The notes below the pieces were generated by a model. That model did not search any database. It worked only from the letters and a program-made list of their open reading frames with translations, and had not been told where the DNA came from. The translations under genes and the position numbers were made by a program. This document shows positions 32,164 to 55,370 of a DNA stretch of 64,000 nt, one piece after another. Where the stretch lies: assembly GCF_016629525.1 (NCBI RefSeq), contig NZ_AP024269.1:992001-1056000 (forward strand). The letters run 5' to 3'. The stretch is from Kaistia sp. 32K. GTDB taxonomy: Bacteria > Pseudomonadota > Alphaproteobacteria > Rhizobiales > Kaistiaceae. Position 1 is the stretch's first letter, and the number at the start of each line of letters is the position of its first letter.

Positions 32164-32192
32164 CCTCCCTCGGCCGTAGATCGTCCAGCCAG

Positions 32193-32224
32193 GGGGAGAG
32201 GCGGAGCCTTGTCCGCTTCTCCCC
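32193..32224 (+). terminator. Intercistronic hairpin after the binding-protein gene
   Basis: Thirteen-base arms (32193-32205 and 32212-32224), complementary except one G-U pair, with a six-base loop. In the 125-bp gap before the permease genes. Probably an mRNA-stabilising or attenuating hairpin that leaves the binding protein in excess. Confidence 0.6.
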
Positions 32225-32288
32225 TCGGCCGCAATTGGCGGCCCGCCGGACGATGTCGCTGACCCGATCCTGAAGCCCGGATGTTTCC

Positions 32289-33167: not shown

Positions 33168-33168
33168 G

Positions 33169-34083: not shown

Positions 34084-34108
34084 TGCCTCTCATGATGGAT
34101 ACATATTC

Positions 34109-35191: not shown

Positions 35192-35219
35192 CTGAAGCTC
35201 CCTGGAAACTGAGGACAGC

Positions 35220-36850: not shown

Positions 36851-36881
36851 CTAACTTCCTTGATTGTCACAAATCTTACGT
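36845..36881. promoter_or_regulatory. Tandem motif pair, candidate DeoR-family boxes
   Basis: The pattern TGTCAnnnAnCTTACnT occurs at 36865-36881 (TGTCACAAATCTTACGT) and, with one change, at 36845-36861 (TGTCATCTAACTTCCTT), 20 bp apart, that is about two helical turns. DeoR-family repressors often use direct tandem boxes. The first copy covers the start codon of the regulator, consistent with self-repression. Confidence 0.6.
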
Positions 36882-36939
36882 CAGATGGGAGAATAGAAGG
36901 CCCGCGGCAAGGCGCAAGCGGAAAAGGTCGAGGCAGCGA

Positions 36940-37566
36940 GTGACAGTGTTGCATTGGGTGGAAGACAGCCGGAAGTTGCTTTGCGGGGATCGGGTCTTCG
37001 ATCCCTCGCGTCTGGAGTGGGTCGAGACCGAGGCGTCGCAGCGTCCGGGGGAAGTCCTGTCGCCGACCGAGGCGCTCCTCCGCTTCGCCGAGCGAAGCGC
37101 GCTCCGCCGCGTCCCGATCGGCATCATCGGCCCGCGCGAGGCGACCTCCGGCCAATGCGAATTGGCGGAAAAGCTCGGCGCGGCGCTCGCACAGCACGGC
37201 CTGCAAATGCTGTGCGGCGGCAAGAACGGCGTCATGGAAGCCGCCTGCCGGGGGCACGCATCGGCGGGCGGGCTGCCGATCGGCATTCTGCCTGATGACG
37301 AGTGGCAAGCCGCCAACCCCTATGTCGCCATTCCCATCGCCACCGGGATCGGCCCCGCGCGCAACGCCATCATCGCCCGCGCGTGCCTCGCGCTCGTGGC
37401 GATCGGCGGCGGCGTCGGCACGCTGTCGGAAATGGCGCTGGGCCTGCAGTTCAACCGTCTCGTGCTCGCCACGAGCGAGGCGCCGCCCGTCGCCGGCGTG
37501 CCTGTTGTCGACACGGTCGAGGCGATCCTCGACCGGATTGCCAGGCGGATCTTCCAGATTCCGTAA
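36940..37566 (+). CDS. LOG-family (TIGR00725-like) nucleotide-binding protein
   Basis: 208 residues with a LOG/lysine-decarboxylase-like Rossmann fold: VPIGIIGPREATSGQCELAE, LQMLCGGKNGVMEAACRGH, and VAIGGGVGTLSEMALGLQ corresponding to the GGxGTxxE motif. Relatives include phosphoribohydrolases that release cytokinin bases and Moco-carrier-like proteins; this subgroup is uncharacterised. GTG 36940 is chosen because the frame upstream is Arg/Lys-rich non-family sequence. The short N-terminal 55 residues are not part of the fold. Sits between the DeoR gene and the importer operon and shares the same control motifs. Confidence 0.75.
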   Translation: MTVLHWVEDSRKLLCGDRVFDPSRLEWVETEASQRPGEVLSPTEALLRFAERSALRRVPIGIIGPREATSGQCELAEKLGAALAQHGLQMLCGGKNGVMEAACRGHASAGGLPIGILPDDEWQAANPYVAIPIATGIGPARNAIIARACLALVAIGGGVGTLSEMALGLQFNRLVLATSEAPPVAGVPVVDTVEAILDRIARRIFQIP

Positions 37567-37596
37567 TATACCTTACGACTGTCATTTAGCTTACAT
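37562..37596. promoter_or_regulatory. Second DeoR-box-like motif pair, upstream of importer operon
   Basis: TGTCATTTAGCTTACAT at 37580-37596 matches the pattern TGTCAnnnAnCTTACnT fully, and a weaker copy (9 of 12 fixed positions) lies at 37562-37578, 18 bp before it. The pair falls in the only sizeable gap between the LOG gene and the first permease, 57 bp ahead of its TTG start. Confidence 0.55.
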
Positions 37597-37652
37597 ACGC
37601 GGACGGTAGAAAGCAGGGGTAACCGGGCGCCTCGACAGCAAGGAGGGCCGAC

Positions 37653-38438
37653 TTGCCTATCGTTGCGATTGCCTATCTGATTTTTCTGGCGGCGCCCGTG
37701 CTGCTGCTGGGGCTTGGATCCTTCGGCGAAAGCTGGAGCAACACGCTCCTGCCGAGCGGATTTACCGTCCGCTGGTTCCAGGAAGTTGCTGGAGACCCGA
37801 GCTTCCGCCGCGCCTTCTTCACCAGCCTGCAGATCGTCGGCACCACCTGTGTTTTGAACCTCGTCGTCGGCCTGCCGCTCGCCTATGCGATCCAGGCGGG
37901 TGCGAAGGGCGGCGTACGGTTTGCCGCCCGGCTGGTCACGCTGCTGCCCGTGGCCGTGCCGGAGCTGGTGCTCGCCTTCGGCTTCATCCTGGTGTTTTCA
38001 TCCGACGCGCTGCCGTGGCTCGGCAGTTTCTGGCTGCTTGCGGCGGGTCATCTGGTGCTGACGCTGCCCTACACCGTGACCGCGCTCGTCGCCGACATGG
38101 AGCAGCTCAACCTCGAGGAATACGAGCACGCCGCCGCGACGCTAGGCGCTTCCTTTCCGGCGCGGCTGCGCGACGTCACCTTTCCGCTGCTCCGGACCAG
38201 CCTGCTCTCCGCGATGCTGACCGTCGCCGGCCTCTCGATCGGCGAGTTCCAGCTTTCGAACCTCGTCTCGGGCTTCCTGTCGCGAACCTATCCGGTCGTC
38301 CTCCTGCAGGCCTTCTATGGCGCAACCGGCTTCGCCTGCGCGGCGACCCTCGTTCTCCTGTTCCTTGCCGTCCTCGCCGCGCTCACCAGCAGCCTGACGG
38401 CCCAGTTCGCTCAAGCCAACAAGACGAAATCCGCATGA
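37653..38438 (+). CDS. ABC transporter permease (PotC/PhnV type), system 1
   Basis: 261 residues, six membrane helices, EAA loop EYEHAAATLGASFPARLRDV. It belongs to the iron(III)/polyamine/2-aminoethylphosphonate import class. Start is TTG 37653, supported by AAGGAGGG centred about ten bases upstream; no nearer ATG is in frame. Stop overlaps the ATPase start (ATGA). Confidence 0.87.
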   Translation: MPIVAIAYLIFLAAPVLLLGLGSFGESWSNTLLPSGFTVRWFQEVAGDPSFRRAFFTSLQIVGTTCVLNLVVGLPLAYAIQAGAKGGVRFAARLVTLLPVAVPELVLAFGFILVFSSDALPWLGSFWLLAAGHLVLTLPYTVTALVADMEQLNLEEYEHAAATLGASFPARLRDVTFPLLRTSLLSAMLTVAGLSIGEFQLSNLVSGFLSRTYPVVLLQAFYGATGFACAATLVLLFLAVLAALTSSLTAQFAQANKTKSA

Positions 38439-39472
38439 CGCTCCGCTATGAAGCCGTCAACTACACCTATCCGGGAACGACGACCGGCGTGTTCGACATC
38501 TCACTGGAGATCGGCCGGGGCGAATTGCTGGCGATCATTGGCGCGTCGGGTTCGGGCAAGTCGACGCTTTTGAAGCTGCTCGCCGGTTTCGTCATGCCTG
38601 CCAGCGGGCGGGTGCTCGTCGAGGGGAGGGATGTCAGCTCTCTCCCGCCGGAAGCGCGCCGGCTCGGCGTGGTGTTTCAGAACTACGCCCTTTTCCCGCA
38701 TATGCGGCTCTGGGAGAACGTCGCCTATCCGCTCAAGGTGCGGGGAATGGCCAAGGCCGAACGCCGCGCCCGGGCCGTCGACGTGCTGGGGCGCGTCGGC
38801 ATGGGCAGTCGCAGCGACGATCTGCCGGCGGCACTCTCGGGCGGGCAGCAACAGCGCGTGGCGCTGGCGCGCGCGCTTGTCTTCGAGCCGCGCGGTCTTC
38901 TGCTCGACGAACCGCTTTCGGCGCTCGATGCGGGTCTGCGGGTCGAGATGCGGGACGAGATCCTTCGGGTCCAGCGCGCCTCCGGCATCGCCACGCTGCT
39001 CGTCACCCACGATCAGGAAGAGGCGCTGTCGATCGCGGACAAGGTCGCCGTCATGCGCGATGGCCGCCTCGTCCAGCTGGGCACGCCGCGCGAGCTCTAC
39101 GAGACGCCCGCCAACGCCTATGTCGCAGGCTTCGTCGGCCAGTCCAATCTCTGGAAGGGCAGGGTCGCGGCTGCGGGGCTGGTCGAAACGGATATTGGCC
39201 CGCTTCGCTGCGACACGAGCGGCCACCAGCCGGGCGACGCCGTCACCGTATTCGTCCGTCCGGAACGGATCGTTCCCGCGTTCGACAGCAACCCGTCGGA
39301 TACCGCCAGCCATTTCTCCGGCTCCGTCGCGGCCGATCGCTACCTCGGCCCGATCCGCCGGATCGACCTCACTGTTCCAGGCGGACTGGTTCGCCTCGAA
39401 ACCCATCTGCGCGACGCCGTGACTTCCGTGCGGGTTCCAGCAGATGCCGTGCGTCTCCTCCCAGCGAACTGA
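38435..39472 (+). CDS. ABC transporter ATPase (PotA/PhnT type), system 1
   Basis: 345 residues: Walker A GASGSGKST, Q-loop VFQNYALFPHM, signature [15 protein letters not shown], Walker B LLLDEPLSALD, switch VTHDQEEAL, and a C-terminal TOBE domain (VFVRPERIVPAF). Energises the permeases of system 1. Coupled to the upstream permease by a 4-bp overlap. Confidence 0.9.
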   Translation: MTLRYEAVNYTYPGTTTGVFDISLEIGRGELLAIIGASGSGKSTLLKLLAGFVMPASGRVLVEGRDVSSLPPEARRLGVVFQNYALFPHMRLWENVAYPLKVRGMAKAERRARAVDVLGRVGMGSRSDDLPAALSGGQQQRVALARALVFEPRGLLLDEPLSALDAGLRVEMRDEILRVQRASGIATLLVTHDQEEALSIADKVAVMRDGRLVQLGTPRELYETPANAYVAGFVGQSNLWKGRVAAAGLVETDIGPLRCDTSGHQPGDAVTVFVRPERIVPAFDSNPSDTASHFSGSVAADRYLGPIRRIDLTVPGGLVRLETHLRDAVTSVRVPADAVRLLPAN

Positions 39473-39494
39473 CTTCAGCAACAGGGGTATTTCC

Positions 39495-40574
39495 ATGAAC
39501 AGACGGCAATTCATGACGACCGTGACCGCCGGCGTCATGGCGCTGAGCCTTGGCAGCAGCGCTTTCGCCTTCGAAGGCCCGGAGCTCTACAAGGGCGAGC
39601 AGGCGCTCTACGACGCCGCCCTCAAGGAAGGCATCGTCGTCTCCTTCGACACCGGACCGACCTGGGCCAACTGGGCCGGTCAGTTCAAGGCGTTCCAGAA
39701 GCGCTATCCGGGCATCGAGATGGTCTACAACGACATCGGCTCGGCCGCGACCGTCGTCACCCTCGACAAGTCGCGCAACCGCCCGCAGGCCGACACCGCC
39801 TATTATTTCGCGGCTTCCGCGCTCGATGCCGTCAAGGCCGGCGTCGTCGAGGGATACGAGCCGGTCAATTTCGATCGCCTGCCGGAAGCGCTGCGCGCCA
39901 AGGACGGCCAGTGGTTCACCGTCCACACCCTCAGCGTCGCGTTCCTGGTGAACACCAAGCTGGTCAAGAACGTCCCGAAGAGCTGGGCCGATCTGCTGAA
40001 GCCCGAATACAAGAACGCGATCGTCTATCAGGATCCGCGCTCCACGGGCCAGGGCCAGGTCGTCACCTTCGCGGCGAGCTTCGGCAATGGCGGCGACATG
40101 GAAAACGTCCAGCCCGGCATCGATTATCTCGGCAAGCTCAGCAAGGCCGGCAACGTCCTGCGCACCGTCGGCACGACGCCCTACGCGCAGTTCCTGAAGG
40201 GCGAGATCCCGATCTGGATCGGCTATGAAAACGACGGCCTGAAGGCGAAATTCGTCGACGGCATGAAGGACGATATCGCCGTCATCATCCCGCAGGAGGC
40301 TTCGGCCGCCGCGCCCTATGCGATCTCGCTGGTCAAGAACGGCCCCAACCCGAACGCCGGCAAGCTCTGGCTCAACTTCATCATGAGCGAAGCCGGCCAG
40401 AACATCTTCGCCGAAGGTTATGTCCGCCCCGCCGTCGCGGACATCAAGCTGCCGGAAGCGATCGCCGCGAAGATGCCGGTGGCAGCCCAGATCAAGCCGC
40501 TCGATATCGCCAAGGCGACCGCCAAGAAGGCGGAAATCGACGCCGGCTGGGCGAAGGCCGTCCTCGGCCAGTGA
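39495..40574 (+). CDS. ABC transporter substrate-binding protein, system 1
   Basis: 359 residues. Leader NRRQFMTTVTAGVMALSLGSS looks Tat-like (two Arg) and is cleaved near AFA. The mature protein is of the ferric/2-AEP-like type: EGIVVSFDTGPTWANWAGQF, RYPGIEMVYNDIGSAATV, YKNAIVYQDPRSTGQG, GNPKAG-like NPNAGKLWLNFIMS. No Tyr pair typical of ferric-ion binders is obvious, so an organic phosphate-like ligand is more likely. A 12-bp hairpin follows. Confidence 0.85.
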   Translation: MNRRQFMTTVTAGVMALSLGSSAFAFEGPELYKGEQALYDAALKEGIVVSFDTGPTWANWAGQFKAFQKRYPGIEMVYNDIGSAATVVTLDKSRNRPQADTAYYFAASALDAVKAGVVEGYEPVNFDRLPEALRAKDGQWFTVHTLSVAFLVNTKLVKNVPKSWADLLKPEYKNAIVYQDPRSTGQGQVVTFAASFGNGGDMENVQPGIDYLGKLSKAGNVLRTVGTTPYAQFLKGEIPIWIGYENDGLKAKFVDGMKDDIAVIIPQEASAAAPYAISLVKNGPNPNAGKLWLNFIMSEAGQNIFAEGYVRPAVADIKLPEAIAAKMPVAAQIKPLDIAKATAKKAEIDAGWAKAVLGQ

Positions 40575-40586
40575 TCTTCCCAACCC

Positions 40587-40616
40587 GCCGTCCGCGCCGG
40601 TATGGGCGCGGACGGC
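40587..40616 (+). terminator. Intercistronic hairpin after system 1 binding protein
   Basis: GCCGTCCGCGCC / GGCGCGGACGGC, a perfect 12-bp stem with a six-base loop, in the 78-bp gap before the second permease. Same arrangement as the hairpins after the other binding-protein genes of the window. Confidence 0.65.
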
Positions 40617-40652
40617 GTCCCTTCGTGCCGACGTCGTGAGAGGAGAGTTCCG

Positions 40653-41477
40653 ATGGGCGCCCGTGCTTCCAGGCCGATGCTGGCCGCCTTCGCGCTTCCC
40701 GGGCTTGTCGTGCTCGCCCTGTTCTTCCTCCTGCCAGTGAGCTCGGTCCTGGTCGGCGCCTTTTCGGATGGCGGCAGTGCCTTCGGACGCCTCGCGGCCG
40801 ATCCGGTGTTCTGGAACGGCCTCAAGGGAACGCTTGTCATCGGCACCGCCGCCCCGTTGTTTTCGCTCGCGGTCGGTTTCTGCGTCGCCCTGGCGATTTC
40901 GCGCATGGCGCAGGGTCTGCGGACGGCCGTCCTCATCGCCATCTCGCTGCCGCTGACCTTTTCCGGCCTGATCGTCGCCTACGGCTTCATCCTGCTTCTG
41001 GGGCGATCGGGCTTCATCACGCTGCTTCTCGCCGAGCTCGGCTTCGATCCGGCGGTGACGGGCGGGTTCATCTTCTCGCCGTTCGGTTTGGGCCTCGCCT
41101 ACAGCTACTATCTCGTCCCCCGCGTCATCCTGATCGTCCTTCCCGCGATCGCCAATTTTGATCGCAACCAGATCGTGGCGGCGCGTTCGCTCGGCGCGAA
41201 AGGGGGGAGGGCGCTGGTCGACGTCATGCTGCCGCAGATCCTGCCGAGCCTCGTCGCCGCCTTCTGCCTGACCTCCGCTGTCGCCGTCGGCGCCTATGGC
41301 ACCGCGCTGGCGCTCGTGGGGACACAGGTCAACATCCTGCCGCTCGTGCTCTACAGCAAGGTCTCCGAAACCGGCACCGACCTGCCTGCCGCGTCTGCCG
41401 CCTCCCTCGTGCTCGTCGCGATCTGCGCGACGGTCGTCACGATCGGCGAGGTCATTCGAAGCGCGCGCAAAGGCTGA
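40653..41477 (+). CDS. ABC transporter permease (PotB/PhnU type), system 1
   Basis: 274 residues, six membrane helices, EAA loop IVAARSLGAKGGRALVDVML. AGGAGAG precedes ATG 40653. Pairs with the permease at 37653. The gene order permease-ATPase-binding protein-permease is less common than the order in system 2. Confidence 0.87.
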   Translation: MGARASRPMLAAFALPGLVVLALFFLLPVSSVLVGAFSDGGSAFGRLAADPVFWNGLKGTLVIGTAAPLFSLAVGFCVALAISRMAQGLRTAVLIAISLPLTFSGLIVAYGFILLLGRSGFITLLLAELGFDPAVTGGFIFSPFGLGLAYSYYLVPRVILIVLPAIANFDRNQIVAARSLGAKGGRALVDVMLPQILPSLVAAFCLTSAVAVGAYGTALALVGTQVNILPLVLYSKVSETGTDLPAASAASLVLVAICATVVTIGEVIRSARKG

Positions 41478-41527
41478 CGCAGGGGCTGCCGAAGGCGGTC
41501 ACGAAACCGTGCGCGGCCTTGGTTCCT

Positions 41528-41629
41528 GCGCCGGTGAACAAGCCGGCTGGTGTCATGAAAGCATTATGAGCCGGCACTAGAAACGCGGCCGGTTTGGCGA
41601 ATGCGCTTGTGAACAGGCCGGCCAGCGTC
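41528..41629 (+). repeat. Imperfect 27-bp direct repeat between the two importers
   Basis: Positions 41528-41554 and 41603-41629 match at 21 of 27 bases (core TGAACAnGCCGGC). They lie in the 221-bp gap between system 1 and system 2. This gap holds no gene that I can support; the repeats may be remnants of a small duplication. Confidence 0.4.
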
Positions 41630-41698
41630 GGCTTTCGGTTCGTCTGCGACCGGGTCGCGCTTTGCATCTTCACCGCACCGACGAAATCGGAGACAACG

Positions 41699-42850
41699 AT
41701 GGACCGCCGCACTTTCCTGATGTCCGCCGCCGGCGCCGCTGCCGGCCTGGCCCTGATGCCCCGCATGGCCTTTGCCGCCAAGGGTACGATCGACTGGTAC
41801 ACGGGCTCGGACGCCAACGTCCTCGACTTCTGGGCCAACACCATCAAGCCCGCCTTTGAAGCCGCCAATCCGGGCATCAAGCTCAACCTCGTCGACGCCG
41901 GCGACAATGCGGGCATTCAGGCCATCGCCGAGCGCGCCATCGCCGCCAAGCAGACCGGCACCGACCCGCAGGCCGACTATTTCGAGCACGCCGATCCCAA
42001 CCTGCCGGCCGGCGCCCTCGATGCCGGCATCTATGTGAACCTGGCCGAGGCCGGCCTCTCCAACTATTCGCGCGTCAACCCGCTCGCCATCACCAGCCCG
42101 TTCAGCCTGCCGTATCGCGGTTCGCAGGTCCTGCTCGCCTATGACAGCTCCAAGCTCAAGGCCGCCGACGCGCCGAAGAGCTGGGAAGCGCTGGTCGCCT
42201 GGATCAAGGCCAATCCCGGCCAGTTCATCTACAATCGCCCCGACAAGGGCGGCTCGGGCGGCAATTTCGTCCGCCGCGCCATCCATCAGGCGAACGGCCT
42301 CGATCCCAAGGCGTTCACCATCGACAACTACAGCGACGACTACGCCGCCAAGACGCTCGGCCGCGCCTGGGAGATCCTGACCGACCTCGCGCCGTCGCTC
42401 TACGACAAGGGCGCCTATTCGTCGGGCAACACCCAGTCGCTGCAGCTGCTCTCCCAGGGCGTCGTGACCATGATCCCGGTCTGGTCCGACCAGGTGCTGC
42501 AGGCCATTCACCAGGGCGTGCTGCCGGCCGATACCGGTCTCGTCCAGCTTCAGGATCTCGCGCTCTGCGGCGGTTTTTCGCGCGGCGTCGTGCTCTCGAA
42601 CGGCGTCAACCGCGAAGCAGCCCTGCGGCTCGCCGATTTCATCCTGTCGGAAGAGATCCAGGGCGCCATCCTGACCGAGCTCGGCGGCTTCCCCGGCGTT
42701 TCCTGGGACTATATCTCGACCGATCTGCGCAAGCGCTTCGCCGACATCGTCCCGCAGTCCATCCCGACCTTCCCCGAGGGCAAGTGGGAAGCGGCCGTCA
42801 ATGACGGCTGGTATCGCAACGTCGCTCCGAACGTCGACCGCAAGTCGTGA
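41699..42850 (+). CDS. ABC transporter substrate-binding protein, system 2
   Basis: 383 residues. Twin-arginine-like leader MDRRTFLMSAAGAAAGLAL ending FAA; mature protein of the spermidine/iron/2-AEP-like class: GTIDWYTGSDANVLDFWANT, DPQADYFEHADPNLPAG, FIYNRPDKGGSGGNFVRR, GVVTMIPVWSDQVLQA. Delivers the substrate for the phosphodiesterase and phosphatase encoded at the end of the operon, in my reading. Stop overlaps the permease GTG by 4 bp. Confidence 0.85.
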   Translation: MDRRTFLMSAAGAAAGLALMPRMAFAAKGTIDWYTGSDANVLDFWANTIKPAFEAANPGIKLNLVDAGDNAGIQAIAERAIAAKQTGTDPQADYFEHADPNLPAGALDAGIYVNLAEAGLSNYSRVNPLAITSPFSLPYRGSQVLLAYDSSKLKAADAPKSWEALVAWIKANPGQFIYNRPDKGGSGGNFVRRAIHQANGLDPKAFTIDNYSDDYAAKTLGRAWEILTDLAPSLYDKGAYSSGNTQSLQLLSQGVVTMIPVWSDQVLQAIHQGVLPADTGLVQLQDLALCGGFSRGVVLSNGVNREAALRLADFILSEEIQGAILTELGGFPGVSWDYISTDLRKRFADIVPQSIPTFPEGKWEAAVNDGWYRNVAPNVDRKS

Positions 42851-43731
42851 CAGAGGTCGCCCAAGGGGTGGCCCGCCCACGCGTCGATTCCGCAGCGAGC
42901 AGGAGGCCGGTAGGCCTCCTGCTCGTCGCCGTTCCGGTTCTCCTGATGATCTGGCTGGTCATCTGGCCGGCCATCAACGCCATCGCCAGCACCATCTGGC
43001 GCCCGGACGCCAGTGGCGCATCCCGCTTCGATCTTTCGAGCTATGCCTTCTTCTTTTCGGATCGCTACAGCCTCGACAATCTCGCCGTCACGCTCTGGAC
43101 GACGCTGATCTCCGCCGTGCTTCTGCTGCTGATCTGCCTGCCGATCGCGCTCTATCTGCGCTTTTCGCGCGGCCGGCTGCCGGCCTATGTCCAGGCGCTC
43201 GCCATCCTGCCGATGTTCGTGCCCTCGATCATCCTGGCCTTCGCCTTCATCCGCGTTCTGGGTCCGAACGGCATGGTCGACATCCTGCTGAACGCCGTTG
43301 GCCTCCCCAAGATCCGGACGCCCTATCTCACGCCCTGGGGACCCGTCATCGGCCTGGTCTGGGACAATATTCCGCTGACCGTGCTGATCCTGCTCGCCGG
43401 TCTCGGCAGTGTCGCCAACCAGTCGATCGAGGCCGCGCGGGATGTGGGGGCGAATGCCCTGCAGGTCTTCTGGCACATCATCCTGCCGCGCATTTCCAAT
43501 TCCGTCCTCGTGGCGCTTTCCTTCTCGATCCTCGGCATCTTCTCGTCCTTCACGCTTCCCTATCTGCTGGGGCCCGCGTCGCCGGAAATGCTCGGCCCCT
43601 TCATGCAGCGCACGCTCCGCGACGTGCACGACCCGGTCGGCGCCATGACCCAGGCGGTCGTCGCCTTCGGCTTCTGCATCGTGTTCGGGCTCTTCTATGT
43701 GCGTTCGGTCGCGCGCAACCGGGGCAAGTGA
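42847..43731 (+). CDS. ABC transporter permease, system 2 (first)
   Basis: 294 residues, six membrane helices, EAA loop IEAARDVGANALQVFWHIIL. Starts with GTG 42847 in a GTGA overlap with the binding-protein stop. N-terminal ~20 residues are a charged cytoplasmic extension (VARPRVDSAASRRP). Confidence 0.87.
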   Translation: MTEVAQGVARPRVDSAASRRPVGLLLVAVPVLLMIWLVIWPAINAIASTIWRPDASGASRFDLSSYAFFFSDRYSLDNLAVTLWTTLISAVLLLLICLPIALYLRFSRGRLPAYVQALAILPMFVPSIILAFAFIRVLGPNGMVDILLNAVGLPKIRTPYLTPWGPVIGLVWDNIPLTVLILLAGLGSVANQSIEAARDVGANALQVFWHIILPRISNSVLVALSFSILGIFSSFTLPYLLGPASPEMLGPFMQRTLRDVHDPVGAMTQAVVAFGFCIVFGLFYVRSVARNRGK

Positions 43732-43732
43732 G

Positions 43733-44557
43733 ATGAAGACGCTTGTTTCCCCGCGGCCGCGCATCGACGGGCTCGGCGTCCTGTTCGCAGCCGTCCTCAC
43801 GCTCGCCATCATCGGTCCTCTGCTCGTCGTCGGCACCTGGGCCTTCACCGAGGTCTGGCGCTATCCCAGCATCATCCCGCAACAGTTCGGGCTCCGGTTC
43901 TGGGGCCAGACGCTCGGGCGCGCCGATGTCTGGAGCGCGCTGACGCTGAGCCTCCAGCTCTCGACGGTCGTGACGCTGCTTTCGGCGCTGATCTGTCTTC
44001 CGGCTGCCTATGCGTTCGCCCGGATGAAGTTCCCGGGGCGGGACATTCTGTTCTTCTCGTTCCTGGCCGGCCATGCCTTTCCGAAATTCGGGCTGCTGGT
44101 CGCGATCGCCGCGATCTTCCTGCAGCTGAACCTCATCGGCTCCTTCTGGGGCGTCGTGCTCATCCAGCTCGTTGGCACGCTGATGTTCATGATCTGGATC
44201 CCCGTGGCCGCCTTCCAGGCCGTGGACCGTCGCATGGAGGAGGCCGCCCGCGACGTCGGCGCCAGCCCGTTGCGGGTGTTCTGGTCCATCACGCTTCCCC
44301 AGGCCGGGCCGACCATTGCCGCGGCCGTGCTTCTGACCTTCGTCAGCACCTTCTACGAGACCGAGGGCGCCTGGCTCGTCGGCGCGCCGAGCATCCGCAC
44401 CATGCCCGTGCTGATGATCAGTTTCATCAACAACCAGATGGTCATCCAGTTCGGCGCGGTCCTCTCCGTCCTGCTCTGGGTGCCCTCGTTCATCGCTCTC
44501 ATGTTCGCCCGTCGCGTCATCGGCGGCGGCGCGTTCGCGCGTGGTTTCGGCGGCTAG
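43733..44557 (+). CDS. ABC transporter permease, system 2 (second)
   Basis: 274 residues, six membrane helices, EAA loop MEEAARDVGASPLRVFWSIT. Begins one base after the previous stop. MPVLMISFINNQMVIQFGAVLS is the final-helix region of MalG-like permeases. Its EAA loop nearly copies that of its partner, as expected of a heterodimer. Confidence 0.87.
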   Translation: MKTLVSPRPRIDGLGVLFAAVLTLAIIGPLLVVGTWAFTEVWRYPSIIPQQFGLRFWGQTLGRADVWSALTLSLQLSTVVTLLSALICLPAAYAFARMKFPGRDILFFSFLAGHAFPKFGLLVAIAAIFLQLNLIGSFWGVVLIQLVGTLMFMIWIPVAAFQAVDRRMEEAARDVGASPLRVFWSITLPQAGPTIAAAVLLTFVSTFYETEGAWLVGAPSIRTMPVLMISFINNQMVIQFGAVLSVLLWVPSFIALMFARRVIGGGAFARGFGG

Positions 44558-44565
44558 GAATTCGC

Positions 44566-45600
44566 ATGTCCGTACTCAACATCGCCCAGATCACGAAGAC
44601 CTATTCCGGCGGCACCCGGGCCGTCGACAGCTTCTCGCTCGACGTCGCGGATGGCGAGCTCGTCTGCCTCCTCGGCCCCTCCGGTTCGGGCAAGTCGACG
44701 CTTCTGCGCATGGTCGGCGGCTTCGAGCAGCCGACCGGCGGTCGCATCACCATCGACGGCGAAGACGTCACCCGTCTGCCGCCGGAGCGCCGGCCGACCG
44801 GCATGGTGTTCCAGAGCCACGCGCTCTGGACCCATATGAACGTGTTCCGCAACCTCGCCTTCGGCCTCAAGCTGCGCCGGATGCCGGCGCCCCGGATCCA
44901 GGAGAAGGTCGAGGCCGTGCTCGAGCTGGTGGGGCTCGCCGGCTATGGCAACCGCATGACCAGCCAGCTTTCGGGCGGCCAGCAGCAACGCGTGGCGCTG
45001 GCCCGTTCGCTGGTGCTCGAGCCCAAGATCCTTCTGCTCGACGAGCCCTTCGCCAGCCTCGACCAGCATCTTCGCGAGCGGCTGCGCGAAGAGGTGCGCG
45101 ATATCCAGCAGCGCCTCGGCATCACCACCCTGTTCGTCACCCACGGCCAGGACGAGGCCCTTTCCATGGCCGATCGCATCGTCGTCATGGCAGATGGCAA
45201 GACCGAGCAGATCGACCGCCCCGATGTCGTCTATCGCGATCCGCAGACACCGTTCGTCGCCGGCTTTATCGGCACCATGAACCTAATCGAAGGCGAGGTT
45301 CTGGACGGAAGCTTCGTCCGCGCCGACCTTGTCGTGCCGCTTCCGGTTTCCGACGGTCCTGCTACGCTTGCGATCCGCCCCGAAGCGCTCGACCTCGCGG
45401 CCTCGGAGACGCCGAAGGCCAGCGTGCATCGGGTCACCGACTATGGCTCGCATGGCCTTGTCGATCTCGATCTCCGCGACGGGACGCGGCTCAAATCCAT
45501 GGTGGCCCATCCCGATCTGTTCCGGGCCGGGCAGGGGGTCGAGCTTCTGCCGCGCGCCGTCGCTCTCTACCGCAACAACCAGCAGATCTACCGGAGCTGA
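44566..45600 (+). CDS. ABC transporter ATPase, system 2
   Basis: 344 residues: Walker A GPSGSGKST, Q-loop VFQSHALWTHM, signature [15 protein letters not shown], Walker B LLLDEPFASLD, switch VTHGQDEAL, and a TOBE regulatory domain (LAIRPEALDLAAS). Eight bases after the permease and two before the phosphodiesterase gene, so transport and hydrolysis are made from one message. Confidence 0.9.
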   Translation: MSVLNIAQITKTYSGGTRAVDSFSLDVADGELVCLLGPSGSGKSTLLRMVGGFEQPTGGRITIDGEDVTRLPPERRPTGMVFQSHALWTHMNVFRNLAFGLKLRRMPAPRIQEKVEAVLELVGLAGYGNRMTSQLSGGQQQRVALARSLVLEPKILLLDEPFASLDQHLRERLREEVRDIQQRLGITTLFVTHGQDEALSMADRIVVMADGKTEQIDRPDVVYRDPQTPFVAGFIGTMNLIEGEVLDGSFVRADLVVPLPVSDGPATLAIRPEALDLAASETPKASVHRVTDYGSHGLVDLDLRDGTRLKSMVAHPDLFRAGQGVELLPRAVALYRNNQQIYRS

Positions 45601-45602
45601 AC

Positions 45603-46439
45603 GTGACCGTGCCCATCCTGATCGAGCGCGAAGGCCACCGCACCTGGCTCAAATGGCATCGCGGCCGCCGCCGCGCCTCTGATCCGGCCTTTACCGGAGA
45701 GCGCATCCTCGAGGCCATGCGCCTCGGCGCCAGCGTCGAGGTCGACCTCGTCATTCATGCCGAGGGCGGCTGCGCGATCCTGCACGATTTGACGCTCGAG
45801 CGGGAAACCACCGGTTCCGGGAAGGTGCGCGATATAGGCGCCACCGCTCTGCGCGAACTCCACCTGCGCGACAATGACGGCAACCCCATCGCGGAAAAGG
45901 TGAGGCTACTCGAGGATCTCTGCGCCCTGCTGGCTCGGGAAGGCATCCATCCCGACGCGCTTCTCCAGCTCGACTTCAAGGAGGACCGGCAGGCGCTCAC
46001 CCCGGAGGTCGTCGAAAGCTTCGGCGCCAGCGCCACGCCGATCGCCGGATCGCTGATCCTGTCGGGCGGCGATTTCGAGGCCATCGCCATGCTGGCCGCA
46101 GCCGCCCCCGGCATCGCGACCGGTTTTGATCCCTGCTACGACGGCGCGCTCGCCGACCTTCAGGCACGCGGAAACTATCTCGATTTCATCCGAGAGGCGC
46201 TCGCCACGGCGCCGGACGCAGGGATGATCTATCTCGACTACGAGATTGTCCTGGCCGCCGAGGATGCCGGTGTCGATATCATCGCGCCGATCCACGCCGC
46301 CGGCCGCCGCGTCGACGCCTGGACGATCGGGGGGACCGACCCGCTCGCGATTGCCCAGGTCGAGCGTCTGCTGCGGCTCCGCGTCGACCAGATCACCACA
46401 GACGACCCGGAAGGGCTTGCTGAGGCCTTCCGCTCATGA
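45603..46439 (+). CDS. Cytoplasmic glycerophosphodiester phosphodiesterase
   Basis: 278 residues of the GDPD TIM-barrel family, with the catalytic set in order: H19 in WHRG, E46 and D48 in VEVD, H61 in ILHD. Later DALLQLDFKED and GRRVDAWTIGG are also typical; the usual PENT motif after HRG is absent. It would cut a glycerophosphodiester into glycerol phosphate plus alcohol, or glycerol plus a phosphoalcohol. There is no signal peptide, so its substrate must be imported first, fitting the importer two bases upstream. GTG 45603 is the first start after the ATPase stop; its stop overlaps the next ATG. Confidence 0.87.
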   Translation: MTVPILIEREGHRTWLKWHRGRRRASDPAFTGERILEAMRLGASVEVDLVIHAEGGCAILHDLTLERETTGSGKVRDIGATALRELHLRDNDGNPIAEKVRLLEDLCALLAREGIHPDALLQLDFKEDRQALTPEVVESFGASATPIAGSLILSGGDFEAIAMLAAAAPGIATGFDPCYDGALADLQARGNYLDFIREALATAPDAGMIYLDYEIVLAAEDAGVDIIAPIHAAGRRVDAWTIGGTDPLAIAQVERLLRLRVDQITTDDPEGLAEAFRS

Positions 46440-47245
46440 CCGTCGATTACGCCACCGTCCTCGACCACATGGTCGCCACCGCCCGCGAGGCGGGCGCGTT
46501 GACGCTGGAGCATTTCCAGCGCTTCCGCGATATCGAGATCGGCATCAAGGGCCCCGGCGACTTCGTTTCCGATGCGGACCGGGACTCCGAGACGCTGATC
46601 CGCGAGCGCCTGCTCGGCCGCTATCCCTGGGGTCTCACCGGCGAGGAATTCGCGCCTGTCGAGGGTTCGGACGACGACCACCGTTGGCTGGTCGACCCGA
46701 TCGACGGCACCACCAATTTCCTCTTCGGCCAGCACTACACCATCACGATCGCGCTGCGTCGCGGCAACGAGACGATCTGCGGGCTGGTCTACAATCCCGT
46801 CGCCGACGAGATGTTCACGGCGATGAAAGGCGAGGGCGCCTATCTCAACCGCGTGCGCCAGCGGGTCAGCGCCAGCACCGATGTCGCCCTGATGTGCGTC
46901 GGCACGGGCCTGCCCACGCCCAACCTCTCGCTGTATCCGGGCGCCTATCAGCGCCTCGACGAAATCCGCGCGCCCATCGGCGCGGTCCGCGTCGTCGGCA
47001 GCGCCGCCAATTCCTGCGCCTATGTCGCCTGCGGCCGGCTCACCGGCTATTACGAGGAAACCGGCTTCATCGACACGGCGGCCGGCATTCTCCTCGTCCA
47101 GGAGGCGGGCGGCATCGTCACCGACTGGTGGGGTCGCGGACCGGAAGTGTACGAGAAGACCGGCACGCTGATCGTCGCCAATCCCGCCACCCACGCCTAC
47201 CTCCTCGAACGCCTGCGCGACGTTCCGCCGAAGGATCCCGCGTAG
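46436..47245 (+). CDS. Inositol-monophosphatase-family phosphatase
   Basis: 269 residues with the Mg-site motifs of the family: GEEFAPVE (Glu), WLVDPIDGTTNF (Asp-x-x-Asp-Gly-Thr) and GFIDTAAGILLVQEAGG (Asp of the usual WDxAAG, Trp replaced). GSAANSCAYVACGRLTGYYE is the substrate-side region. Coupled to the phosphodiesterase by a 4-bp ATGA overlap, which suggests consecutive reactions: the phosphodiesterase releases a phosphoalcohol, and this enzyme removes the phosphate. Inositol phosphate is the simplest substrate, but sugar phosphates are possible. Confidence 0.88.
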   Translation: MTVDYATVLDHMVATAREAGALTLEHFQRFRDIEIGIKGPGDFVSDADRDSETLIRERLLGRYPWGLTGEEFAPVEGSDDDHRWLVDPIDGTTNFLFGQHYTITIALRRGNETICGLVYNPVADEMFTAMKGEGAYLNRVRQRVSASTDVALMCVGTGLPTPNLSLYPGAYQRLDEIRAPIGAVRVVGSAANSCAYVACGRLTGYYEETGFIDTAAGILLVQEAGGIVTDWWGRGPEVYEKTGTLIVANPATHAYLLERLRDVPPKDPA

Positions 47246-47273
47246 ACCCACATGAAAGGTCGCCGGCGAGACA

Positions 47274-48278
47274 TCAAATCTGCCGGCAGCTTTCGCGGAT
47301 GATCAGTTCCGGCTGGAAGACCTCGACGGCGCCGCTCGGCTGCGCCTTGCTGGTGATCTCGTTCAGCAATTGCTTGATGGCGCTCTGCGCCATGTCCGCG
47401 ATCGGCGCCGCGATCACGGTCGGCGGCGGGTTCATGATGTTGGCGAAGTAGAAATCGTCGATGCCGATCACCGAGACGTCGGCCGGCACCCGGAGCTGCA
47501 ATTCGCGGAGCGCGTTCAATACGCCCAGCATCATCATGTTGGAGAGCGCAAAGATCGCGGTCGGCGGCTCGGGCGCGCGCATCAGGGCCAGCGTGCTGTC
47601 ATGCGCGACGGCCTGGTCGAACTGGCCGTCGATCAGCAGGCGCTGTTCGACTGGCACGCCATGGGCGGCGTGGGCGTCGAGATAGCCCTGAAGCCGGTCC
47701 TCGCCTGTGACGACATTGGGGCGGCCGGTGGTGACGGCGATGCGGCGGTGGCCGAGTTCGAACAGATAGTCGATGGCGAGGCGCGCGGCACGCACGTTGT
47801 CGAGCTTCACCACGTCATAGGGCAGACCGGCGATGAAGCTGTCGAGCAGGATCGTCGGCACGTGGATCTGCTCGGCGAGGCTGGCGCCGTGCTCTGCGTC
47901 CGAGCGGGTGGGGATGATGATCAGGCCGGCGACGCGCTGGGCCCGCATCATGGTGAGGATTTGACGCTCCCGGTCGAAATCCTCGTTGGTCGAATAGACG
48001 GCGGCCATGTATCCGGCCTGCAGGCAGGCGGATTCGACCACGCGCGCGACATTGGCGAAGTGCGGATTGGTGATATCGGGCAGGATGAGGCCGACCAGTC
48101 GCGACTGGCCGATCCGGAGGCTCTGCGCCGCGCCATGCGGCACGTAGCCGATCTCGCGCACCGCCTTCCGGACCTTCTCGATAACCTCGTCGCTCACCGG
48201 CGCCGACCGGTTGATGGCCGCCGATGCGGTCGAAATGGCGACGCCAGCCCGCCGCGCAACATCCTTGATGGTAGCCAA
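47274..48278 (-). CDS. LacI-family regulator of the GH116 sugar operon
   Basis: 334 residues: helix-turn-helix LATIKDVARRAGVAISTASA, hinge YVPHGAAQSLRIGQSR, effector domain with PTAIFALSNMMMLGVLNAL and VPADVSVIGIDDFYF. Start taken at TTG 48278 (GGAGGA three bases before it, and the usual two residues ahead of TIKDVA); GTG 48305 is an in-frame alternative without a binding site. Divergent from the importer and followed on that side by two perfect palindromic operators. Confidence 0.9.
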   Translation of the reverse strand: MATIKDVARRAGVAISTASAAINRSAPVSDEVIEKVRKAVREIGYVPHGAAQSLRIGQSRLVGLILPDITNPHFANVARVVESACLQAGYMAAVYSTNEDFDRERQILTMMRAQRVAGLIIIPTRSDAEHGASLAEQIHVPTILLDSFIAGLPYDVVKLDNVRAARLAIDYLFELGHRRIAVTTGRPNVVTGEDRLQGYLDAHAAHGVPVEQRLLIDGQFDQAVAHDSTLALMRAPEPPTAIFALSNMMMLGVLNALRELQLRVPADVSVIGIDDFYFANIMNPPPTVIAAPIADMAQSAIKQLLNEITSKAQPSGAVEVFQPELIIRESCRQI

Positions 48279-48333
48279 GCTTCCTCCAGCCCCGTCGTCG
48301 CCCACTTGTCAAACGGGCCACGACATGCACTAT

Positions 48334-48347
48334 ACGAAACGTTTCGT
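48334..48347. promoter_or_regulatory. LacI-family operator 1
   Basis: ACGAAACGTTTCGT, a perfect 14-bp palindrome with the central CG pair typical of LacI/GalR operators, 56 bp upstream of the regulator start. It shares its 12-bp core CGAAACGTTTCG with operator 2. Confidence 0.85.
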
Positions 48348-48410
48348 GCAGGCAAATTTCTAGGACGCGGTTTGGGGAGGAGCCCATCCGCGTTTTTTCG
48401 GGGAGGGCAC

Positions 48411-48424
48411 ACGAAACGTTTCGA
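48411..48424. promoter_or_regulatory. LacI-family operator 2
   Basis: ACGAAACGTTTCGA; the inner 12 bases (48412-48423) are perfectly palindromic and identical to operator 1. Centres are 77 bp apart, and this copy is 56 bp before the binding-protein start, mirroring the distance of operator 1 from the regulator. Suits coordinate repression, possibly by looping. Confidence 0.85.
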
Positions 48425-48480
48425 CCGGAAATCCGGCGAGACAACAACGACGCTGGGGACGGCGCAAAGGGAGGACATCC

Positions 48481-49761
48481 ATGCATATGCTTTCACGGCG
48501 CAGCCTGCTGCTGTCGACGGCGGCTGTGGCCGTCGGCGCGAGCCTCGGTTTCGGACCGGCTTTCGCTCAGTCGGACGTGACGGCGACGCTCAAGCTCCAG
48601 GGCTTTGGCGGCGATGCGGAGCTGAGCGCCATCACCAACGCGATCGCGCGCTTCAACAAGAAATATCCGAACGTCACGGTCGAGCTGGAGATGGACGCCA
48701 TCGCCAATGGCTGGGGCGACTATGTGACCAAGGTGCTCGGCCAGTTCAACGCCGGCGCCGCCGCCGATGTCTACGGCACCGCCATCGAGACCTTCCAGGC
48801 GTTCTCGTCGCGCAATCTCTGGATGGGGCTGGACGACTTCGTCCAAGCCAATTCCGGATTCTCGGACTTTGCGCCGAGCCTGTTCAAGCAGGGTTCCTAC
48901 AACGGGGTGATCCACTACATCCCGATTGGCTGGAACAACATCATGATCAACTACAACCGGGACCTGTTCGACAAGGCCGGCGTCGCCTATCCGGCCGACG
49001 GCAAATGGACCTGGGACGAGTTCCGCAAGGTCGCCAAGGCGCTGACCGTCAAGGACGCGTCCGGGACGGTTGTCCAGTTCGGCTATGAAGTACCGAACCA
49101 GAACTTCTTCGTGCAGCCCTGGTTCTTCTCCAACGGCACCGCCATCCTCAACGATGACTGGTCCGCCTCGAACATGCTGGACCCCAAGGTCTCGGAAACG
49201 CTGCAGTTCCTCTACGACCTGATCCATGTCGACGGCGTCTCGCCCATTCCGGGCAGCGGCGCGCCGATGGACAGCCAGTTCTTCGCCGGCCAGGTCGCCA
49301 TGATCAGCCGTGGCCACTGGATCGTGCAGGGCGCCAAGAACAACAAGGTCAACATGGACATCGCCATTCCGCCGAGCAAGGAAAGCGATACCACCGTGAT
49401 CGGCTTCGGCGGCTACGCCATCAACAAGAATACCGCCAATGCGGACCTTGCCAAGGCGCTGGTGCTCGAGCTGACGAGCGAAGAGACGCAGAAGGAAGAG
49501 GGCGAGAAGGGCGGCGGCGTGCCGGGCCGCAAGTCCGCCGCCTCGACCGAGGCGTTCCTGAGCTTCCCGCCCTCGGCCGCGCTCTACTACCAGACCCTGC
49601 CGCATACCAAGGCCGTGCCTTCGCCGGCTAACTTCCAGGAAGTCGAGAAGATCTTCATCCGCCACTACACCGCGATGATGGCGGGCGAGATCTCGATCGC
49701 CGACGGCGTCAAGGCGGCCGATGCCGAGCTGGCCGCTTCGTTCGCCCGGCTGAAACAGTAG
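48481..49761 (+). CDS. Sugar ABC transporter substrate-binding protein (CUT1), GH116 operon
   Basis: 426 residues. Tat-like leader LSRRSLLLSTAAVAVGASLGF cleaved near AFAQ. Cluster-B sugar-binding features: LKLQGFGGDAELSAITNAI, YPNVTVELEMDAIANGWG, ADVYGTAIETFQAF, FAGQVAMISRGHWIVQGA. Sugar identity is not readable; the glycosidase in the operon suggests a beta-glucoside. Start at ATG 48481 (GGGAGG eight bases upstream); ATG 48487 is also in frame. Confidence 0.88.
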   Translation: MHMLSRRSLLLSTAAVAVGASLGFGPAFAQSDVTATLKLQGFGGDAELSAITNAIARFNKKYPNVTVELEMDAIANGWGDYVTKVLGQFNAGAAADVYGTAIETFQAFSSRNLWMGLDDFVQANSGFSDFAPSLFKQGSYNGVIHYIPIGWNNIMINYNRDLFDKAGVAYPADGKWTWDEFRKVAKALTVKDASGTVVQFGYEVPNQNFFVQPWFFSNGTAILNDDWSASNMLDPKVSETLQFLYDLIHVDGVSPIPGSGAPMDSQFFAGQVAMISRGHWIVQGAKNNKVNMDIAIPPSKESDTTVIGFGGYAINKNTANADLAKALVLELTSEETQKEEGEKGGGVPGRKSAASTEAFLSFPPSAALYYQTLPHTKAVPSPANFQEVEKIFIRHYTAMMAGEISIADGVKAADAELAASFARLKQ

Positions 49762-49793
49762 CGGCGGGCTCCGCCTCCGACATCCTCCGACCG

Positions 49794-49828
49794 GTCCGGG
49801 CGCGCCTCTCCACGGGCGCAGCCCGGAC
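49794..49828 (+). terminator. Intercistronic hairpin after the binding-protein gene
   Basis: GTCCGGGC / GCCCGGAC plus an inner GCGCC / GGCGC stem with one bulged A, in the 141-bp gap before the permease genes. Same placement as the hairpins in three other importer operons of the window. Confidence 0.55.
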
Positions 49829-49902
49829 ACCCATCACGGAACGCCGCCCCCGGGGTCATCCCCGTGCGGGAGGCTGCCCTATAGCCTTGCTTGGAACTCT
49901 CC

Positions 49903-50814
49903 ATGGCCGCCAGTCTCGCCGCCCGCCGTTCCTCCTCCGACCTCCGCCGGGCGCAGGCGCGCACCGCCTATCTGTTCGTGCTGCCCACGACGGTCCTCTA
50001 TGTGACCTTCGTGCTGGCGCCGGTGGTGGTTACCTGCATCCTCGCCTTCGCCCATTTCGACCCCATGATGGGATCGCGCTGGGTCGGCTTCGACAATTTC
50101 GTGCGCTTCTTCTCCGATCGCCGCTCGCTGCAGATCCTCTGGAACACGCTGCGCTTCACCTTCTTCGCGGTGACCTTCAACGTGTCGATCGGGCTGATGC
50201 TGGCGATCGCGCTCAACCGGGCGATGCCGGGCTGGCTGCTCTATTTCTTCCGCCTGTCGTTCTTCCTGCCGGTGATCATCGCGGCGGCCTTCGTCTCGAT
50301 CGTCTGGAGCTATCTCTACGGCGATGATCTCGGCGTCATAAACTACTACCTCCGCGTCATCGGATTGCCGGGTGTGCGCTGGCTGACCGACGCCAATCAG
50401 GCGATGACGTCGATCATCATCATGGATGTCTGGAAGAACACCGGCTTCTTCATGATCATCTTCATCGCCGCGCTGCAGGGCGTTCCGAAGACGATCCTCG
50501 AGGCGGCGGTGATGGACGGGACGCCGGCATGGCGGCAGTTCTTCCGCATTACCCTGCCTTACATCTCGCCGGTCGTGTTCTTCTGCATCGTCTACGCCTC
50601 GATCGGCGCGCTGCAGGTGTTCGAGTCGATCGTCATCCTGACCCATGGCGGGCCGGGCGACGCCACGCGCTCGCTGTCCATCCTCATCGTCGAGGAAGGC
50701 TTCGGCAGCTTCCAGATCGGCTACGCCGCCGCGATCTCGGTCGTCATGACGGTGCTGATCCTTGTCATCACCGCCGCGCAGCAGATCCTCTCCCGCCGCT
50801 GGGTGCAGCAATGA
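49903..50814 (+). CDS. Sugar ABC transporter permease (first), GH116 operon
   Basis: 303 residues, six membrane helices, EAA loop LEAAVMDGTPAWRQFFRITL; MMGSRWVGFDNFVRFFSDRR is the usual loop before helix two. ATG 49903 preferred to TTG 49891. Stop overlaps the next start (ATGA). Confidence 0.9.
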   Translation: MAASLAARRSSSDLRRAQARTAYLFVLPTTVLYVTFVLAPVVVTCILAFAHFDPMMGSRWVGFDNFVRFFSDRRSLQILWNTLRFTFFAVTFNVSIGLMLAIALNRAMPGWLLYFFRLSFFLPVIIAAAFVSIVWSYLYGDDLGVINYYLRVIGLPGVRWLTDANQAMTSIIIMDVWKNTGFFMIIFIAALQGVPKTILEAAVMDGTPAWRQFFRITLPYISPVVFFCIVYASIGALQVFESIVILTHGGPGDATRSLSILIVEEGFGSFQIGYAAAISVVMTVLILVITAAQQILSRRWVQQ

Positions 50815-51662
50815 ATTCGATGATGCAGACGCGCGCCGCCAAGCGCTGGATCGACTGGGCCATCATCGCCAGCATGGTGCTGCTCGCCTTCTTCATGCTG
50901 CTGCCGTTCCTGTGGCTGTTCTCGATGTCGTTCCGCTCGGTCGCGGACGCCTACAAGATGCCGCCGAGCTTCCTGCCGCCCAGCCTCGATTTTTCCAACT
51001 ATTGGGCGGTGATGACGTCGAAGGTGCCGTTCCTGAAGATCTACGCCAATTCGGTGATGATCGCGCTGATCGTCACCGTCGGCCAGATGATCACCTGCAC
51101 GCTCGCCGCCTTCGCCTTCGCCCGCCTCCAGTTCCGCGGCCGCAATGCGCTGTTCTTCGCGCTTTTGGTCGGGCTGATGTTCCCGGCCCAGGTGACGATC
51201 CTGCCGATCTATCTCGGCTATGCCCGCATCGGCTTGATCAACAAGCCGATCGGCCTCGCGCTCATGTATCTCACCTCGAGCTTCGGGGTGTTCCTGATGC
51301 GCCAGTTCATGATCAGCCAGCCGAAGGCGCTGGAGGAGGCGGCGCTGATGGACGGCGCCGGCTATCTGAAGATCTTCTGGCGCATTTCGCTGCCCCAGTT
51401 GCGGCCGGCCCTCTCGGCGCTCGGCATCATCACCTTCACCCAGACCTGGAACTATTACTTCCAGGCCAAGGTACTGCTCGGCAAGCAGGACCAGATGACG
51501 CTGCCGCTCGCGATGGATGTCCTGCGCGGCTACATGGGCGCCGGCAATCTCGCTGTTGTCATGGCGGCCATGAGCATGTCGATCCTGCCGGTCGTGCTGC
51601 TTTTCCTCATTGCCCAGAAATTCGTGATCGAAGGCATCACGATGAGCGGCATCAAGAACTAG
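50811..51662 (+). CDS. Sugar ABC transporter permease (second), GH116 operon
   Basis: 283 residues, six membrane helices, EAA loop LEEAALMDGAGYLKIFWRIS; FPAQVTILPIYLGYARIGL is a MalG/UgpE-type landmark. Forms the channel with the upstream permease. Followed 13 bp later by the glycosidase gene. Confidence 0.9.
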   Translation: MNSMMQTRAAKRWIDWAIIASMVLLAFFMLLPFLWLFSMSFRSVADAYKMPPSFLPPSLDFSNYWAVMTSKVPFLKIYANSVMIALIVTVGQMITCTLAAFAFARLQFRGRNALFFALLVGLMFPAQVTILPIYLGYARIGLINKPIGLALMYLTSSFGVFLMRQFMISQPKALEEAALMDGAGYLKIFWRISLPQLRPALSALGIITFTQTWNYYFQAKVLLGKQDQMTLPLAMDVLRGYMGAGNLAVVMAAMSMSILPVVLLFLIAQKFVIEGITMSGIKN

Positions 51663-51675
51663 AACCTCCAGGGAA

Positions 51676-54266: not shown

Positions 54267-54267
<1 letters not shown>
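51676..54267 (+). CDS. GH116-family beta-glycosidase (GBA2-like)
   Basis: 863 residues. N-terminal beta-sandwich with YLAFPLGGIGSGGLSISGSG and VDWSIRNRP, C-terminal (alpha/alpha)6 domain with CTHVWNYQQALPHLFPAIER, DGHFGAVIKTYREWKLAGD, LDMELFGPNSWLGSMYVAAL, ISDQILGQWHAEVAGLG and NPWNDIECGSYYARSM. These are family GH116 landmarks (beta-glucosidase, beta-xylosidase, glucosylceramidase activities). No signal peptide, so it should act on substrate already imported by the surrounding ABC system. I do not assign catalytic residues by number. Embedded between permease and ATPase genes; the stop shares one base with the next ATG. Confidence 0.88.

Positions 54268-55370
<1,103 letters not shown>

Follow-up and report, generated by a model that had tools for sequence, protein, structure and literature searches.

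The window analysed here is a stretch of 64,000 nucleotides from the alphaproteobacterium Kaistia sp. 32K (contig NZ_AP024269.1, positions 992,001 to 1,056,000). Between its positions 41699 and 47245, a reading of the open reading frames (ORFs) finds six unbroken and tightly packed genes on the + strand, encoding an ABC importer, a phosphodiesterase of the GDPD family and a phosphatase of the inositol monophosphatase (IMPase) family. The first gene (41699-42850, +) encodes a periplasmic solute-binding protein of 383 residues, with a Tat-type signal and the Pfam domains SBP_bac_8/1. It is followed by permease 1 (42847-43731, +, 294 residues) and permease 2 (43733-44557, +, 274 residues when counted from the ATG at 43733, the longest ORF opening at 43697), both ABC permeases with a BPD_transp_1 domain and an EAA-type loop. 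The ABC-type ATPase (44566-45600, +, 344 residues) carries ABC_tran and TOBE_2 domains as well as Walker A, LSGGQ and Walker B motifs. Then come the predicted cytoplasmic phosphodiesterase (45603-46439, +, 278 residues, GTG start, PF03009) and the phosphatase (46436-47245, +, 269 residues, PF00459). All six proteins pass their Pfam cut-offs. The gene of permease 1 overlaps that of the binding protein by 4 bp, permease 2 begins (at ATG 43733) after a spacing of 1 bp, the ATPase gene follows after 8 bp and the GDPD gene after another 2 bp, and the phosphatase gene overlaps the latter by 4 bp, so that the close joining of importer and enzyme genes, first pointed out in a sequence-only reading of this DNA, holds with six intact ORFs and gaps of 1-8 bp.

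The phosphodiesterase scores 42 bits against PF03009 (cut-off 23.6) and carries HRG at residue 19, EVD at 46 and HD at 61. The HR, ExD and HD motifs hold the catalytic and metal-binding residues of the family. H19, E46, D48 and H61 are invariant in 37 aligned sequences, among them AccF of the agrocinopine system discussed below, while R20 and D62 vary in some relatives. The structural model (pLDDT 94.6) best matches, by Foldseek, the GDPD of T. tengcongensis (2pz0), with D124 of the window protein sitting where 2pz0 has a Glu. A PENT motif after HRG is usual in GDPD enzymes without being a defining feature; it is missing from the family of the window protein, which has DPAFT instead, and is present in AccF. 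The IMPase-family protein reaches 166.8 bits against PF00459 (cut-off 27), with DPIDGT at 87 and GEE at 69, and its best solved relatives by sequence are SuhB/IMPase proteins. The catalytic motifs reported earlier for both enzymes were thus found again, and their lack of signal peptides also stands, in that a hydrophobic signal-like start is missing from both as judged by hydropathy alone. Neither enzyme reaches the cut-off of its best NCBIfam equivalog model: the phosphodiesterase scores 36.8 bits against the UgpQ equivalog NF006989 (cut-off 264), and the phosphatase 149.1 bits against the SuhB equivalog NF008027 (cut-off 332). In 68 of the 73 loci that could be compared, the phosphodiesterase shows the lowest conservation of the six proteins, changing fastest, as if its substrate were being retuned.

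The binding protein begins with MDRRTFL, in which R3 and R4 are invariant among 30 aligned homologues. Its model (pLDDT 81) has the general periplasmic-binding-protein fold, with many close Foldseek matches. STM0429, which we take to be PhnS, and ferric-ion-binding proteins head the list, with PotD, UgpB and P5PA (6wce) also among the matches. Its sole NCBIfam match is PRK11622, below the cut-off (78.7 of 203 bits). The importer proteins all fall below the cut-offs of the PhnU, PhnU2, PhnV, PhnT and PhnT2 equivalogs, the polyamine, iron and phosphonate models shown for them are each under their own cut-offs, and the permeases and ATPase do not reach the UgpA, UgpE and UgpC models. Homologues of the binding protein are often labelled 'putative spermidine/putrescine' in their sources.

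The six-gene set recurs patchily in Alphaproteobacteria. A total of 125 loci around homologues of the phosphodiesterase were collected, 5 from plasmids, 40 from numbered genomes and 80 from genomes of named species (the best 80 of 194 confirmed); 113 were kept after removal of 5 without a retained GDPD ORF and of 7 duplicates. Eight of these, whose GDPD has less than 40% identity, were counted apart, and 4 of the remaining 105 end at a contig end, leaving 101 scorable loci, which are not independent since many come from Devosia or Rhizobiaceae. Homologues of all four importer genes are present in 94 of the 105 loci (GDPD at 40% identity or more), and an IMPase gene lies within two genes of the GDPD, on the same or the opposite strand, in 97 of the 101. 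Among the eight low-identity loci, none has the full importer and 5 have the IMPase. The control was made of 30 other genomes of the same order that lack the GDPD family of the operon (26 of them with some Pfam GDPD), taken by number from 397, mostly even and up to G060, with G056 left out because it holds the GDPD family. There, none of 43 Pfam GDPD places has an IMPase match within 3 kb (130 IMPase-family matches, tables compared by eye), although a neighbour could be missed at those places that lie near contig ends; for 10 of the 43 there is an IMPase match on the same contig, none nearer than about 100 kb. At a threshold of 1e-20 the GDPD family occurs in 41 of the 397 genomes and 12 of 142 genera, and its distribution is therefore patchy, with the same gene order found in Rhizobiaceae, Devosia, Pannonibacter and Ketogulonicigenium. 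The neighbourhood comparison proposed in the sequence-only reading thus yields a conserved order and a GDPD-IMPase adjacency of 97/101 against 0/43. Together with the parallel of the acc system, these results support well the sequence of steps suggested earlier (import, cut, dephosphorylate), and the operon very probably imports, cuts and dephosphorylates some phosphodiester.

The window copy was probably acquired laterally, because its proteins are closest to those of Agrobacterium and Rhizobium (81-90% identity to the nearest copies for five of them, and 78-79% for the GDPD), whereas the GDPDs of same-genus relatives are just 47-48% identical to it. A non-orthologous replacement of the IMPase was considered and dropped: the tree joins the two main IMPase clades at 91/67, possibly as sisters, and only the kept GDPD-IMPase adjacency is therefore claimed. 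A few loci depart from the common plan. In L087 and L091 the GDPD-IMPase pair occurs without an importer, and in L091 thiC, an FAD oxidoreductase gene, thiG and a thiamine-phosphate-synthase gene stand immediately upstream of it. In L065 and L074 the GDPD adjoins a 5'-nucleotidase-type phosphoesterase with a Tat signal, and the next three genes downstream showed no IMPase. On a Rhizobium leguminosarum plasmid (L006:7968-16521), a distant GDPD (38%) is found near an IMPase-LacI-GDPD-sugar-importer cluster, with the same enzyme pair and another importer class.

The closest known plan is that of acc on pTiC58, the system of agrocinopine catabolism, where the genes of an ABC importer likewise run straight on into accF and accG, members of the GDPD and IMPase families respectively, these names being assigned by gene order and the portions of the literature at hand. 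According to the available part of one report, sucrose and arabinose-2-phosphate are what AccF makes from agrocinopine, and AccG is described as the phosphatase (PMC4526662). The two systems differ in their parts. AccA, which goes with oligopeptide-type ATPases, has no similarity to the window binding protein, the acc regulator is the DeoR-type AccR, and identity is limited to 31% over 112 residues between the window GDPD and AccF, and 32% over 198 residues between the window IMPase and AccG. Since an AccA-type protein is missing and the enzymes are just 31-32% identical over part of their length, membership of the window operon in the acc system, or orthology of its enzymes with AccF and AccG, was ruled out. 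In the phosphatase tree, AccG and the IMPase of another Kaistia sp. 32K locus (L080) form one clade (100/100), and the window IMPase lies in a separate one (100/99). As judged from the sequences, the operon is a repetition of the acc plan with an importer of another class and non-orthologous enzymes.

That other locus holds a second GDPD-IMPase pair of the same genome (L080:8023-9650, at about 4.492 Mb of G000:C1). As in the window, the two genes overlap behind ABC permeases; here the permeases are sugar-type (CUT1-like, by eye), and the enzymes have 29% (GDPD, over 80 residues) and 31% (IMPase) identity to those of the window. Its GDPD is 33% identical to AccF and its IMPase 66% identical to AccG, so that a chromosomal agrocinopine-like pathway may exist in this genome. 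Next door to acc lies a Na/Pi cotransporter gene, whose product is 45% identical over 543 residues to one beside locus L118 of the window operon family; relatives occur in 10 of the 113 loci, including L046, which has a CUT1-type importer. YjbB is presumably a protein of the same kind. Overexpressed YjbB can export phosphate, according to the part of the source consulted (PMC11850910), and the Na/Pi transporter may therefore vent phosphate freed from imported diesters.

Two other kinds of known system bear comparison. UgpBAEC-UgpQ, for glycerol-3-phosphate and glycerophosphodiesters, combines a CUT1 ABC importer with a cytoplasmic GDPD and is not known to have an IMPase partner; as noted above, its models are not reached by the window proteins. 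AfuABC and P5PA, FbpA-like importers, offer a precedent for phosphorylated ligands in the fold class of the binding protein, as far as the portions of the sources at hand go. Both take up phosphomonoesters, and the operons that encode them are unlike the one described here.

Upstream of the operon stands a PhoB-box-like element, TGTCATGAAAGCATTA (41551-41566, +), and 11 bp further on comes a -10-like TAGAAA (41578-41583). The upstream regions of 92 binding-protein genes, that of the window included, were scanned with dinucleotide shuffles as control. With 0-1 mismatch, the motif TGTCATNAAAGCGTTA is present in 29 of the 92 and never in shuffles; it looks like a PhoB box whose second half is weak. 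TAGAA is found in 16 of the 17 Rhizobiaceae-type regions listed, again including the window. At up to one mismatch, TGTCATNAAAGCNTTA has the window site as its only place in its own genome. A full PhoB box at up to 3 mismatches is present in 38 of the 92 regions (loci which are related) against 1 in shuffles. The window falls outside the good matches: against the full two-repeat consensus it reaches 10 of 14 positions at best, and its 16-mer is found nowhere else in the genome, which weakens the PhoB reading. The upstream region of accR has a PhoB box at 2 mismatches, and phosphate limitation is stated to activate acc in the available part of a review (PMC4086400). A sigma-70 scan of 41300-47400 gave no promoter-like site. 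Overall, the conserved PhoB-like element suggests phosphate control of the operon, with PhoB as its presumed ligand, and transcription would probably rise in phosphate starvation through it.

A second motif points to control by LacI-family regulators in many relatives. At 0-1 mismatch, TGCAC-N4-GTGCA is present in 51 of the 92 upstream regions and turns up in shuffles 1 time. Of 36 loci with a LacI-family gene 34 have the motif, as do 17 of 55 that lack the gene; in 35 of the 113 loci such a regulator is among the five genes upstream. The motif was not found in the window upstream region, whose best match has 3 mismatches, the usual value in shuffles. As the conserved LacI gene is not beside the operon either, substrate control may be lost in the window copy. 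As a candidate regulator, the LacI gene at 47274-48305 was dropped, since it adjoins an importer/GH116 cluster and its product is 24-31% identical to the LacI proteins conserved elsewhere. Overlapping the start of the window (987-992.5 kb of the genome, L184:3104-8553), two LacI proteins flank importer-like genes, as seen by eye; their identities to the L116 LacI, which is of the kind kept with the operon elsewhere, are 42% and 40%, and an operator, TGCACATGTGTGCA, is located at L184:4301.

From families and fold, the following course of events may be proposed. In the periplasm, the Tat-exported binding protein would pick up the diester intact and hand it to the ABC importer for entry into the cytoplasm. 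There, the GDPD-family enzyme would hydrolyse one P-O bond, predicted to be the one leaving a phosphorylated half from which the IMPase-family enzyme would strip the phosphate, this half probably being an inositol phosphate. The products would be phosphate and a polyol, and if the latter is inositol it would feed the iol pathway encoded elsewhere in the genome.

Which phosphodiester, then, does the operon handle? The sequence-only reading had put forward glycerophosphoinositol, the commonest natural inositol phosphodiester. Taken from family names alone, that guess is weak, because IMPases are broad in substrate and the UgpQ and SuhB models stay far out of reach; what does speak for it is the company these genes keep in relatives. 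When iolE was located in the 41 carriers of the GDPD family, it lay 7.5-14 kb from the GDPD in four of the five same-genus carriers (G225, G099, G130 and G278). The fifth, G293, has iolE and the GDPD on different contigs, and in other carriers iolE is unlinked or more than 20 kb off, as far as compared. In G130 the order is iolG, 120 bp, binding protein, both permeases, ATPase and GDPD, with a convergent IMPase and divergent iolC, iolD, iolE and iolB, and its iolG, C, D, E and B all exceed curated cut-offs. G278 has the same set (permease 2 being visible in L040) plus a 689-residue ORF between iolG and the binding protein, for which no NCBIfam match was obtained at 1e-40. In G099 and G225, iolG is followed by the GDPD and a convergent IMPase, and the importer is not there. 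The enzyme pair is thus adjacent to iol genes in four of five carriers, and the importer as well in two. Six Devosia loci also have IolE-like and IolG-like genes directly before the binding protein. Of eight blocks compared between the window binding protein and two iol-linked ones, blocks 136-150 and 172-194, presumed from the fold class to line the pocket, are 91-93% identical, against 53% overall. A dedicated IMPase would also make better sense if the phosphate is left on the inositol. On account of the iol linkage in relatives, an inositol phosphodiester such as glycerophosphoinositol is rated the likeliest ligand and is our leading candidate, with the chances for and against it about evenly balanced.

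Several points weigh against this candidate. Canonical GDPD cleavage would give glycerol-3-phosphate and free inositol, and no inositol phosphatase would then be needed. The window operon, unlike the loci of those four carriers, is not itself beside iol, its own iol locus being at 3.37 Mb, and the iol-linked binding proteins are about 56-57% identical to its own. Only 2 of the 8 blocks stand well above the 53% average, and identity is 46-53% in three others that presumably belong to the pocket. A single ancestral event in one genus may account for the iol link. True iolG, C, D and E were not found by BLAST with same-genus iol proteins in the Devosia and Rhizobiaceae loci read, and the Devosia IolG-like and IolE-like proteins scored are far below curated cut-offs. 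The presence of iolE in 38 of the 41 genomes with the GDPD family means little, because iolE is common in these genomes anyway. Finally, the LacI regulator that accompanies many loci fits sugars as well.

Indeed, the same mechanism could serve an agrocinopine-type sugar phosphodiester (sugar-P-sugar or sugar-P-polyol), with the IMPase freeing a sugar from its phosphate. The shared plan of acc, in which a sugar 2-phosphate is the AccF product and AccG a phosphatase, would agree with this, as would the LacI genes and the motif that tracks them, and the sugar enzymes (GH4, PfkB, MurQ-like) next to some loci. Such a substrate is nevertheless rather unlikely: the enzymes are distant from AccF and AccG, nothing resembles AccA, the other pair in the genome has the IMPase closer to AccG, and the iol linkage points elsewhere. 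A general scavenger of the Ugp/UgpQ kind, taking up glycerophosphocholine, -ethanolamine and -glycerol, would have the GDPD release sn-glycerol-3-phosphate and the IMPase turn it into glycerol. The family and fold of the GDPD, the place of UgpB among the fold matches and the phosphate-type promoter element are in keeping with it, but we consider it quite improbable, as the UgpQ, UgpA, UgpE and UgpC models are all missed, a dedicated phosphatase would waste glycerol-3-phosphate, and glpD and glpK are absent among those neighbour clusters that were typed, which are only some of them. Least probable of these is an importer for an unrelated ligand (iron, a polyamine or 2-aminoethylphosphonate) with enzymes that merely share the operon, which would suit STM0429 and the ferric-ion-binding proteins as top fold matches, the listing of PotD and the spermidine/putrescine labels, but not the joint occurrence of importer and enzymes over many genera, the keeping of GDPD with IMPase in either orientation, the lack in the binding protein of the adjacent Tyr pair that is a feature of FbpA, or the sub-threshold polyamine, iron and phosphonate scores.

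Other transport clusters surround the operon in the window. Directly before it (36065-41477) lies a PhnS-like ABC set made of a permease, an ATPase, a binding protein and a second permease, upstream of which come a DeoR regulator and a LOG/SLOG-type protein. This importer (37653-41477) was tried as part of the system and dropped, its binding protein and permeases having relatives in only L007 and L093, at 26-32%. Directly after the operon (47274-55370), a LacI regulator, importer genes with an ATPase and a GH116-family glycosidase form a separate sugar cluster, and further upstream (28653-35957) are a LacI regulator, a sugar-type importer with its ATPase and a ThuA-family gene.

An inositol phosphodiester as substrate would give these results a wider meaning. 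Among the matches listed in a full-text search of open-licence papers, which were available in part, no description of a bacterial system of this kind was found. Tentatively, and at slightly less than even confidence, we propose that the operon is a dedicated bacterial system for the import and catabolism of glycerophosphoinositol or a kindred diester, the first known from the literature searched. It would be a phosphate-controlled, laterally moving module of plant- and soil-associated Alphaproteobacteria recovering inositol and phosphate from deacylated phosphatidylinositol, and agrocinopine catabolism would be one specialised case of a broader and largely chromosomal ABC-GDPD-IMPase family. 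If this is true, an orphan importer that is widespread and currently annotated as 'spermidine/putrescine' or 'extracellular solute-binding' would receive a function, the crown gall agrocinopine system would fall within a broader family, and plant or microbial phosphoinositides would become a source of phosphorus and inositol for rhizosphere bacteria.

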